From Thermoplasmata archaeon M9B2D (lineage in GTDB: Archaea > Thermoplasmatota > E2 > DHVEG-1), in NCBI GenBank assembly GCA_002900555.1, contig MUGD01000020.1, forward strand, positions 1 through 23,971: DNA of 23,971 nucleotides. The letters are read 5' to 3'. Every line of letters starts with the position of its first letter. The stretch's first letter is position 1. The notes beneath the pieces are model-generated. The model saw nothing but the letters and a program-made list of their open reading frames with translations, had not been told where the DNA came from and searched no databases. A program made the translations under genes and the position numbers. Below, piece by piece: positions 52 through 17,542 of this stretch.

Positions 52-189
52 GTGGAAAAAGAAAGAAATTTATCAGAGTTCAAGTCATCATCTCTTGAAC
101 AATTGGGTCTCAGAGAGGAGGAATATAAAACTAAAAAAAGGAAAGGGAGTTTGGCAGAAAACATATTTTCTTCATATTTCCCCTCATGA
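52..189 (+). CDS. Possible 45-residue small protein, GTG start
   Basis: The frame from GTG 52 to TGA 187-189 encodes a hydrophilic, Lys/Glu/Ser-rich peptide beginning (M)EKERNLSEFKSSSLEQLGL and ending ENIFSSYFPS. There is no clear Shine-Dalgarno motif and I recognise no family. The composition is protein-like, but an AT-rich intergenic stretch can give a frame of this length by chance. The 3' end of the frame overlaps an inverted repeat (TGGCAGAA near 153-160, TTCTGCCA near 204-211). I regard it as a weak candidate only. Confidence 0.2.
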   Translation: MEKERNLSEFKSSSLEQLGLREEEYKTKKRKGSLAENIFSSYFPS

Positions 190-414
190 ATATACTTCTT
201 GGTATTCTGCCACTCTTCTCTCTAGACCGACAATATCGTGTCGATCAGCAAAACAAAAAGTGTATTATTAAAACCATGTCACTGATTTTTTCCTGATCTC
301 TTATTTTTATTTTTTCCAAACATTTAAATGAGTATAGATGATTGCAATGCATGACCTGATTTGTAGGGGGGACAGCCGATACAATACCAGAAATATGTAA
401 GGTTCATTTTTATT
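190..414. other. AT-rich intergenic region with probable promoter for the gene at 415
   Basis: I see no convincing gene here. It contains the short inverted repeat CGACA-N6-TGTCG near 228-243, pyrimidine-rich runs near 284-315, and an AT-rich TTTAAAT near 324-330. That last motif is a plausible TATA element for rightward transcription into the gene starting at 415. Confidence 0.35.
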
Positions 415-15397: not shown

Positions 15398-16540
15398 TTA
15401 AAACATGTTGGTCTGCAGCTTCACCACCCGACTGAGACGGTATCCGATAATTACCATAAAATACCCTTGTTTCGCAAAAAGAGAATCAAGGGTTTTATCT
15501 CCGGTGTCAACCCGTAGAAGCGGGGTAACCATCAGCTTTGAGGGGGTTGCTACGACGATGATGTTGTCAATGCCTATTTTTTTAATGACTCGGGGGCTCA
15601 ATTGAAGATTCCCACGACCAAGGATGAAGCCTTGTGCCCCGATTGGACTGAGAACTATTTTTACTTTCGGATATTTTTTCAGAAGAGAAAGGATTTGTTC
15701 TTCATTTAGATCTCGTCCTATAAGCTGTTTTTGGTAAACAGCGTCAATTCCAAGAAGCGTATGTTCAATATGTAGTTTTTTTGCGATAGCGTCAATGGTC
15801 CCTCCTGAACAGAACAAAAACAACCAATCCTTGTGTTTTTCTAGCTCATCTTTGATATGTTCGGCAAGTTCGTCTTTTACTTCCTCGTCAGAGACTGATT
15901 CAAAACTTGCTTTGCCTACTTGTACATAGGTCGGTTCAATGATTCCTCGTACGACACCGAATAGCCGGATCTTCCATTCTCCATTGCGATAGAGCTCCTC
16001 ATCAAGGTCCATGATTTCCACATCACCGATAGTAAGTCTTTTATTGATGAACTCCGACAGCATTTTTGCCGTGGCTTTTGTGTTAATGCCAAAGACACCG
16101 GAATGCATTTTGACGCCTGCAGGAATGCCAAGGAGCGGGATTTTTTTATCGACAATAGCATAGATATCTCGTGCTGTTCCATCACCGCCACAGAAGAGGA
16201 GTAAATCAAGGTGGTGATCAAGGAATGCTTTGCACGCGGTTGTTGTATCATGAGCTGTGGTTCTATCGCTTGATGGCGAATAGACAATCTGTATGTTTTT
16301 AATTTCAAGAGTTTCTAATACAGTACCACCCATTTCCCCGCTGCAGGTGACCCAGAGAAGATCGTGGTGGTTTTTGGAGAACACAAAAAATTCACGAAGC
16401 ATCTCTTCTGCTTTCTGGCGTGCGACAGGTCTAGCTCCCATTTGAACTGCTTTGTCAAAAACACCATCTGTTCCTTTAAGTCCAACTCGTCCACCCATCC
16501 CTGCAACAGGGTTTATTAAGAAACCTATTTTTACGCTCAT
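15398..16540 (-). CDS. Archaeal NAD-kinase-like protein (COG3199 family)
   Basis: A predicted cytosolic nucleotide kinase of the NAD-kinase / diacylglycerol-kinase fold. The N-terminus IGFLINPVAGMGGRVGLKGTD is typical of COG3199. FCGGDGTARDIY contains the GGDGT signature (about residues 118-122), followed by GIPAGVKMHSGVFG. A C-terminal domain (CSGGTIDAIAKKL, then RGNLQLSPRVI and TPSKL) is also conserved in that family. Length is 380 residues from ATG 16540; a GTG directly before it is an alternative start. Phosphorylation of NAD(H) is the assumed reaction, but members are poorly characterised. It lies 60 bp upstream of the kbl gene on the same strand and may share its transcript. Confidence 0.85.
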   Translation of the reverse strand: MSVKIGFLINPVAGMGGRVGLKGTDGVFDKAVQMGARPVARQKAEEMLREFFVFSKNHHDLLWVTCSGEMGGTVLETLEIKNIQIVYSPSSDRTTAHDTTTACKAFLDHHLDLLLFCGGDGTARDIYAIVDKKIPLLGIPAGVKMHSGVFGINTKATAKMLSEFINKRLTIGDVEIMDLDEELYRNGEWKIRLFGVVRGIIEPTYVQVGKASFESVSDEEVKDELAEHIKDELEKHKDWLFLFCSGGTIDAIAKKLHIEHTLLGIDAVYQKQLIGRDLNEEQILSLLKKYPKVKIVLSPIGAQGFILGRGNLQLSPRVIKKIGIDNIIVVATPSKLMVTPLLRVDTGDKTLDSLFAKQGYFMVIIGYRLSRVVKLQTNMF

Positions 16541-16635
16541 CACATCTCTGAAAGATTGCTCTCAATAGGAATAGGATTTAATAATGCATTGGTTCTAATC
16601 GAAGTACTTTTTCATTTTGAGATTTTACCACGATG

Positions 16636-16646
16636 CGTTTATATAG
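16636..16646 (+). promoter_or_regulatory. TATA box upstream of the GC-rich structured element
   Basis: CGTTTATATAG is close to the archaeal TATA consensus. It lies about 28 bp before the base of the long closing stem (16667-16670), the spacing expected for transcription starting at the element on the plus strand. The motif is nearly symmetric, so it could also serve the leftward gene at 16540 with a longer leader. Confidence 0.55.
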
Positions 16647-16666
16647 TGTCAACGACAAAGTAAAAA

Positions 16667-16811
16667 AGTGGTGAGGAAGGGCGACGTTCGGTTGGGTCTT
16701 GTCTTCCCGATCTGCGCTCTTGTCTTGCGATGACGCCTGGTGTTGCGTAGCTGCGTTGCGTCAGTGCGGCGCCGTATTTCGCGCCTCCTTCCCCCCTCCT
16801 TCCTTACCGTT
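16667..16811 (+). ncRNA. Candidate structured non-coding RNA with twin identical hairpin loops
   Basis: This gap of about 275 bp is non-coding, yet 139 bases of it are about 62% G+C by hand count in an AT-rich neighbourhood. GGTGAGGAAGG (16670-16680) pairs with CCTTCCTTACC (16798-16808), 11 bp with one G-U, extendable to about 14 with wobbles. Inside are four possible hairpins: GGTTGGG/CCCGATC (16690-16712), CGC/GCG (16715-16729), TGACGC/GCGTCA (16731-16763) and GGCGC/GCGCC (16768-16785). The first two have the same 9-base loop, TCTTGTCTT. CCTCCTTCC occurs twice on the 3' side (16784-16792, 16795-16803). A TATA box sits upstream and a T6 run follows at about 16830. The minus strand is an alternative: its 3' end would be followed at once by T6. 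It is not recognisable as 5S, SRP, RNase P or a guide RNA. A palindromic mobile repeat remains possible. Confidence 0.55.
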
Positions 16812-16818
16812 GTAGATG

Positions 16819-17400
16819 TCAAACTTCCTTTTTTAACCCTTGGTGTTTACGTTCTTGTACAACATCAAGGTCAATCGTCCCTTTTGAATATGCCTTAATA
16901 AATGTTCTTGAGTCTATGCTGTACATCTGAGAGTCACACATCAAAAAATATTCTGAACAGGCAGCGCTTTTCACCTCTTCGATGACGTCTCTTGTTATTG
17001 CTGAGGTGAAGTGATGGTCTTCTGAGAGAAAGACGTCAACGCCGTTTTTCAAGATGGAAACAAGAATATTGCAGTCATTGACGATATGATCTGCGGGAAC
17101 GCCATGGTGTTGCATGGAGCGAATACATGCGTGACCTAACGCGTCGGAAAGCAGCCGATTCTTAAAGTCAATGACAGTCGCGTGTGCATGAGTCCAGCGC
17201 TTTATTGCTTTTTTGTAGGTTTGCTCTGTGACGCGCCCCCAGATTTTTAGTTGTTCAAGTTCAGAGGCAACGGTAGTGGTCACAAAACAAGGGATACGAT
17301 CACGTGCTAATATATCTATGATCCGATCAATCAAGGAAGTAGTTTTTAATAGGAATGACGTATCAAACGAGACGCTTCGAATCTGTAGTGTTTTAACCAT
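16819..17400 (-). CDS. PIN-domain ribonuclease-like protein
   Basis: A 193-residue protein whose first ~140 residues look like a PIN domain. The usual acidic residues are in place: Asp13 in SFDTSFLL, Glu47 in VASELEQL, Asp109 in HIVNDCNILV and Asp128 in VDVFLSEDHHF. These would bind metal for single-strand RNA cleavage. The C-terminal ~50 residues are a lineage-specific tail. VapC toxins share this fold, but no antitoxin-sized gene lies next to it; upstream is tRNA-Arg. It may therefore be a stand-alone RNA-processing nuclease rather than a toxin. Its 3' end abuts the structured GC-rich element. Substrate unknown. Confidence 0.75.
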   Translation of the reverse strand: MVKTLQIRSVSFDTSFLLKTTSLIDRIIDILARDRIPCFVTTTVASELEQLKIWGRVTEQTYKKAIKRWTHAHATVIDFKNRLLSDALGHACIRSMQHHGVPADHIVNDCNILVSILKNGVDVFLSEDHHFTSAITRDVIEEVKSAACSEYFLMCDSQMYSIDSRTFIKAYSKGTIDLDVVQERKHQGLKKEV

Positions 17401-17468
17401 TTTTTATTCCAAATCTGTTCTTATTTTTTTCCATTAGTTTACCATGACCTATTCAATAAAGGGGAAAG

Positions 17469-17542
17469 CGGACCTATGGGGATTCGAACCCCAGTATCCG
17501 GCTCCGAAGGCCGGAAGGATATCCAGACTACCTCATAGGCCC
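17469..17542 (-). tRNA. tRNA-Arg (anticodon TCG)
   Basis: The cloverleaf is complete: acceptor GGGCCTA/TAGGTCC, D stem AGGT/TCCT, anticodon stem CCGGC/GCCGG with loop CTTCGGA (anticodon TCG, reading CGA), and T arm TGGGG-TTCGAAT-CCCCA. The discriminator base is G, CCA is not encoded, and there is no intron. A TTTTATAG element around 17570-17577, read leftward, is a plausible promoter. Confidence 0.95.

Follow-up and report, generated by a model that had tools for sequence, protein, structure and literature searches.

A putative small RNA family of one archaeal class with a shared start, a C-rich 3' arm and a common promoter layout

Overview

The element at positions 16670-16808 (+) of the window, by which we mean the whole 23,971-nucleotide stretch of archaeal DNA analysed here, is very probably an RNA gene and a member of a family. 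We propose a stand-alone non-coding RNA gene of about 140 nt with a TATA promoter of its own; transcription would diverge from that of a NAD kinase gene and proceed in the direction of the 3' end of a PIN-like gene. The first nucleotides of the RNA, GGUGAGGAAGG, would pair with the last, CCUUCCUUACC, closing a multi-branched fold. The element would be the long member of a small RNA (sRNA) family of one archaeal class, characterized by a shared start, a C-rich 3' arm and a shared promoter layout. By extension from a short sister RNA, the long RNA may act post-transcriptionally by pairing with purine-rich ribosome-binding sites, and its pairing parts would then be its UCUUCC(C) stretches and its pyrimidine 3' arm. 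Conservation, strand, promoter, shared ends and absence from Rfam are established at the level of sequence. We regard the explanation as a whole as moderately probable, and the mode of action assigned to the long form as tentative.

Genomic setting, stem and fold

The NAD kinase of the window is 100% identical to one of Thermoplasmata archaeon M11B2D. Its gene, annotated as an ATP-NAD kinase family protein (Pfam PF01513 and PF20143), occupies 15398-16540 on the minus strand and is divergent from the RNA. Convergent with the RNA is the gene for a 193-aa PIN-like or FCF1-like protein (16819-17400, minus strand), which has no Pfam or NCBIfam match and takes its name from relatives labeled FCF1- or VapC-like by their sources. 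A tRNA-Arg (TCG) gene at 17468-17542 (-) lies upstream of the PIN-like gene in the window and recurs 55-150 nt upstream of that gene in four related loci (L001, L002, L006 and L008).

The G+C content of the element is 61.9%, against 30.9% in the upstream flank, 36.4% in the downstream flank and 42.4% in the whole window; a value as high occurs in 1 of 2384 segments of 139 nt. Its closing stem of 11 bp, including one G-U, is formed by the 5' arm GGTGAGGAAGG (16670-16680, +), invariant among the aligned long forms, and the 3' arm CCTTCCTTACC (16798-16808, +). The interior (16681-16797, +) comprises a hairpin GGGCG..CGCUC with a conserved UUCGG / UCUUCCCGAUC part and UCUUCC at 16702, a second site at 16723 and two more hairpins, followed by a C-rich stretch ahead of the 3' arm; these hairpin assignments derive from folding together with weak covariation. 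UCUUCC in the P2 region is shared by the window and 10 of the 11 other long forms, being absent in L114, while the second site reads UCUUGC in the window and UCUUCC in 7 of the 11 others. The original prediction had described an 11-bp terminal stem, four internal hairpins, about 62% G+C between AT-rich flanks and a T6 run following the stem on the minus strand. All of these were recovered, the four inner hairpins in the predicted plus-strand fold, and a T6 run follows the closing stem on both strands. The plus-strand run (16829-16834) may mark where transcription ends; it overlaps the PIN-like gene, encoded on the opposite strand, at that gene's 3' end, and a run of at least six T also lies downstream of the RNA in L001-L006.

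Compared with shuffled sequences, the predicted fold is stable on the plus strand (z -2.64; 4 of 200 shuffles equally stable) and on the minus strand (z -3.38; 1 of 200), and the 1.2-kb region around the element contains 13 other inverted repeats of similar size. Taken alone, the fold is modestly beyond chance and provides weak evidence; we take the element as real because it is conserved across relatives.

Conservation and distribution of the long form

A search with the PIN-like family yielded 35 loci, and the long-form set comprised 12 members, namely the window (W), L001-L008, L044, L020 and L114. In eight other genomes (L001-L008) the element lies between the NAD kinase and PIN-like genes, as in the window. 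In L044 (genome G023) it adjoins the NAD kinase gene, with no PIN-like gene within the 3.1 kb read; in L020 (G020) it adjoins the PIN-like gene and has a different gene on its other side; L114 (G032) is a probable, diverged long form at another locus. Among the loci with the PIN-like gene in Thermoplasmatota-type genomes (L001-L022), 9 of 22 have the element there; two are uninformative, as the sequence of L016 stops at the gene and that of L021 is masked nearby.

Across nine aligned loci (window and L001-L008), both stem arms are 100% identical, the interior is 79.6% identical and the block from CATTTTG to the TATA box 83.0%. The corresponding values outside these parts are 59.2% between TATA box and start and 50.1% after the stem, with 68.1% and 54.7% further towards the NAD kinase gene. 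The ten genomes matched by covariance model R1 are those from which it was built, and over 80 genomes R1 found no long form beyond them. Each genome has one match to the long form, rather than the many dispersed copies that the original prediction had named as the mark of a repeat.

Position 4 of the closing stem is G-U in 11 of the 12 long forms and G-C in L020. Since the 5' arm never varies, no two-sided change is seen in the closing stem of the long family. The interior has three two-sided pairs (shuffle mean 1.1; 42 of 500 shuffles reach three), and its covariation score is matched by 97 of 500 shuffles; covariation inside the long form is weak.

Promoter and strand

The TATA box TTTATATA (16638-16645, +) stands 24 nt ahead of the stem. 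An upstream promoter box, CATTTTGAGATTTTACCAC (16613-16631, +), starts 25 nt before it, within the block that is 83% conserved. TTTANATA is found 23-25 nt upstream of GGTGAGG in 10 of the 12 long forms and in all 18 short sister RNAs described below; A/T-rich boxes of other sequence occupy the TATA position in L007 and L020, the two remaining long forms. CATTTTG at exactly this spacing from the TATA box is present in nine of the 12 long forms and in seven of the 18 short RNAs; if CGTTTTG is also admitted, the counts are 10 of 12 and 12 of 18. Archaeal transcripts start at a characteristic distance from the TATA box, which here would place the start at or adjoining the first G of the stem; the closing stem would then join the extreme 5' end of the RNA to its 3' end.

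The well-placed plus-strand TATA box of the original prediction is thus conserved in relatives. The orientation, which that prediction had left open, is now assigned to the plus strand because of the TATA spacing, the kept G-U at position 4, which permits pairing there on the plus strand only, and the paralogues.

Of the 80 genomes of the class, 46 contain the promoter box, which among the matches listed also stands ahead of protein genes (reversed control, 8 hits). A box specific to these RNAs was therefore ruled out, as it also precedes two response-regulator-like and two pilin-like genes, identified by eye. It is absent before RNase P genes in the ten upstream stretches read. The class-wide form, CATTTTGACATTTTNACAC, lies 25 nt before TTTAWATA (L305-L328), with up to 21 occurrences per genome among the matches listed; by eye, the genes behind it are pilin-, response-regulator- and lipoprotein-like, together with the RNAs.

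Comparison with known RNAs

The Rfam covariance-model search proposed in the original prediction was conducted with Rfam 15. At gathering score, only a tRNA at 17469-17542 reached the cut-off in the window; neither strand of 16560-16900 gave a match at E <= 10, and C/D and H/ACA guide RNA models likewise gave none in this interval. Seven loci with short forms had no match at E <= 1. Archaeal RNase P RNA (RF00373) and SRP RNA (RF01857) resemble the element as structured, G+C-rich stable RNAs, but both are encoded at other places in the long-form genomes, RNase P RNA as a separate gene in 7 of 10 (five above cut-off) and SRP RNA in 8 of 10, and both were rejected as its identity. The earlier suggestions that known archaeal RNAs do not match and that the element belongs to an undescribed archaeal small RNA family are supported by these results, given that no Rfam family matches and that the closing stem is preserved in the relatives found. 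The long form also has features of a stand-alone intergenic sRNA: it is intergenic, has its own TATA box (10 of 12), and its sole candidate reading frame is broken in 5 of 12.

Sister RNAs

Two weak and unexpected 61-nt matches of model R1, in G011 and G066, represent a short form of 55-69 nt with the layout TATA-N23/24-GGTGAGGAAGGG, which starts as the long form does and has a similar C-rich 3' arm. Among 389 genomes of the phylum, 18 contain its pattern and 4 the reversed control; all 18 belong to the 80 genomes of the class, with none among the other 309, and the short RNA adjoins a DUF1015 gene at 16 of the 18 loci. A related pattern, TTTANATAN{18,30}GTGAGGAAGG, has 28 places in 19 of the 80 genomes (reversed control, 0), reduced to 27 after G044, inside a long open frame, was dropped. 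The long form and the short GGUGAGGAAGGG RNA have in common their start, their TATA spacing and a pairing 3' arm, and the short-form model matches the window element through its arms (19.0 bits, E 0.0042). Both forms are present in each of G001-G008, G020 and G023, and probably in G032 as well.

A third set of RNAs, 83-97 nt long and found in nine genomes, carries GGTGAGGTAGG. With the 3' arm picked blind to position 8, eight of the nine GGUGAGGUAGG RNAs have A (seven) or G (one) opposite U8, compared with U opposite A8 in 15 of 15 clean short RNAs. U8 with A opposite in this set is the two-sided change missing from the long family alone. The compensatory stem changes anticipated by the original prediction are thus absent within the long family and appear, as a change from A8-U to U8-A, once the sister RNAs are included. 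Across the sets, 365 of 385 arm pairs are complementary, a count reached by 0 of 2000 shuffles under a 3'-arm rule leaning towards pairing at position 8. The shuffle test was repeated with the 3' arm chosen blind to that position; the blind rule selects a different, equally scoring register in 8 of the 12 long forms.

Model R2 has weak matches in 44 of 80 genomes at E <= 0.1, part of which are further hairpins. Other hairpin RNAs (L159-L162) start with TGTGAGG or TATGAGG, with TTTAAATAG 24 nt upstream and an upstream stretch TTAACA-G-GTTGAAATA. The window itself contains a second hairpin RNA candidate at 115-228 (+), with loop CTTCATATTTCCCC, stem GGCAGAA/TTCTGCC and outer pairing GAGAG/CTCTC; a TATAAAA box lies near 124, and model R2 scores the candidate at 16.7 bits (E 0.017). 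Sequences similar to this candidate were found in L205, L188, L229, L242, L244, L246, L249 and L250.

The short-form loop and starts of putative secreted-protein genes

In 16 of the 18 short forms the loop reads CUUCAUAUU-N-CCCC, the complement of GGGG-N-AAUAUGAAG, which combines a ribosome-binding site and a start codon. This loop recurs in additional hairpin sets whose arms differ. Matches to the motif number 119 in 28 genomes when overlapping ones are included, compared with 7 for the reversed control. We read 99 distinct occurrences, a sample in which some loci had been preselected by model R2 and orthologues were counted separately. Half of them (50 of 99) are starts of frames of at least 60 aa, and 44 of these 50 have a hydrophobic, signal-peptide-like N-terminus, such as MKKFIPILIVGILVLSGLGAAAF, against a background of 60 of 220 frames, or 9 of 18 when the second residue is Lys. 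The common start in secreted-protein genes of the class (L179-L262) is GGGG-N-AATATGAAGAA, with a signal like MKKFIPIxIVGILVLSGLGAAAF. At the other 49 occurrences the reverse frames are shorter than 60 aa, and 47 of the 49 have at least eight pairs across the motif, a weak mark because 24 of the 50 gene starts have at least eight as well. Between an mRNA start and a hairpin of the same genome, the perfect complement extends to 16-21 nt at 10 of 47 gene starts; these are raw lengths without a shuffled control, 9 nt of which are present by construction. A peptide encoded on the strand opposite to the short RNA was rejected, as the frames there span 3 to 54 codons among the 16 motif-bearing short forms. 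On this sequence evidence, the short sister RNA has the look of a repressor of secreted-protein synthesis.

For the long form, the search for an anti-start-codon motif was negative: the window element has no CAU, and its 11 relatives have neither CTTCAT nor CATAT. No target for the long form was found. A broader view, which we consider speculative and rather doubtful, is that a network of many sRNAs controls the cell surface, with the window RNA as its long partner; in it, tens of CUUCAUAUU-N-CCCC hairpins would bind the ribosome-binding site and start codon of many secreted-protein mRNAs and the long GGUGAGGWAGG RNAs would tune them through shared arms.

Alternative explanations

Two alternatives accept the RNA and assign it another function. 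The bulged closing stem could bind one protein, so that long and short RNAs enter a single ribonucleoprotein as scaffolds and the long form pairs with no mRNA. This is possible, though rather unlikely: an identical 5' arm on RNAs with unrelated interiors of 55-160 nt and the large, branched interior structure of the long form speak for it, but it comes without a known protein partner, the 3' arm varies where pairing permits, and the wider-set hairpins have other arms. The other alternative makes the long RNA an antagonist or partner of the short one, its 5' arm pairing with the short RNA's 3' arm and thereby holding the short RNA back or releasing it. The identical 5' arms of both forms in ten genomes (G001-G008, G020 and G023) and in G032 suit this idea. 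However, the two RNAs have different arms in G011 and G066 (GGTGAGGAAGG and GGTGAGGTAGG), so matching arms are not required, and each form closes on itself equally well, which leaves the idea unlikely.

The remaining explanations deny a plus-strand RNA gene. A leaderless 20-aa peptide could be read from GTG at 16671, and a 20-codon frame with its stop in the same place persists in 7 of 12 long forms (W, L001, L005-L008 and L044; for example, VRKGDVRLGLVFPICALVLR). The frame is broken in the other five (L002, L003, L004, L020 and L114), with 1-nt indels in L002/L003 and in L004; changes between W and L007 mostly alter the residue while whole nucleotide blocks are kept; conservation extends past the stop to the 3' arm; and the common start leads into other frames in the short and U-type RNAs. 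We reject the peptide with reserve, since 7 of 12 keep the frame, and judge it very unlikely. Slightly less probable still is a minus-strand element that would serve the PIN-like gene, with its stop codon 8 nt distant, as 3' UTR or terminator. Its fold is also stable relative to shuffles (z -3.38, as above) and T6 follows the stem, but the conserved TATA and upstream boxes indicate the plus strand, the kept G-U would be A-C on the minus strand, the element persists beside the NAD kinase gene in G023, where the 3.1 kb read holds no PIN-like gene, and the sister RNAs are located elsewhere. As for mobile or repeated DNA of MITE type, the closing inverted repeat alone recalls it; the single copy per genome, the conserved locus and the imperfection of the repeat at the DNA level led us to reject it, its probability being negligible. 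We accordingly retain the plus-strand sRNA gene as the preferred explanation.

Relation to known archaeal sRNAs and implications

The closest parallels are from Methanosarcina mazei. There, sRNA154 and sRNA41 are experimentally proven intergenic sRNAs that mask ribosome-binding sites, and loop 2 of sRNA154 has an anti-ribosome-binding-site sequence that masks the site of glnA2 mRNA (PMC5867862). The short sister RNA, as read here from sequence, likewise has a loop complementary to a ribosome-binding site and start codon. Relative to sRNA154 and sRNA41, the present family belongs to another phylum, no sequence relation was found through Rfam, and its long form lacks the anti-start motif; moreover, the motif recurs in many hairpins of each genome, and the genes that match it mostly encode secreted-like proteins. 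A third sRNA of this species, sRNA162, is reported to act in trans by masking a ribosome-binding site and to contain, as a second domain, a cis-antisense one (PMC3510493). The window RNA resembles the latter in running towards the 3' end of a convergent gene, but sRNA162 is reported to use an unstructured linker (PMC3510493), whereas in the window RNA the two ends would pair to close the molecule. The family may share with the Methanosarcina sRNAs the idea of ribosome-binding-site masking, and not sequence.

The literature searched, among open PMC papers, contains no report of this family, nor of an sRNA with a known role in this uncultured class. Few archaeal sRNAs have a known role. The combination of a constant start and a constant 3' arm with swappable interiors is unusual for a family. 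The start-codon complement in the short sister yields a direct prediction, namely that one set of sRNAs acts on many secreted-protein mRNAs. If so, the family may represent an unseen layer of gene control in poorly known microbes, and it could serve as a marker for sediment metatranscriptome studies.
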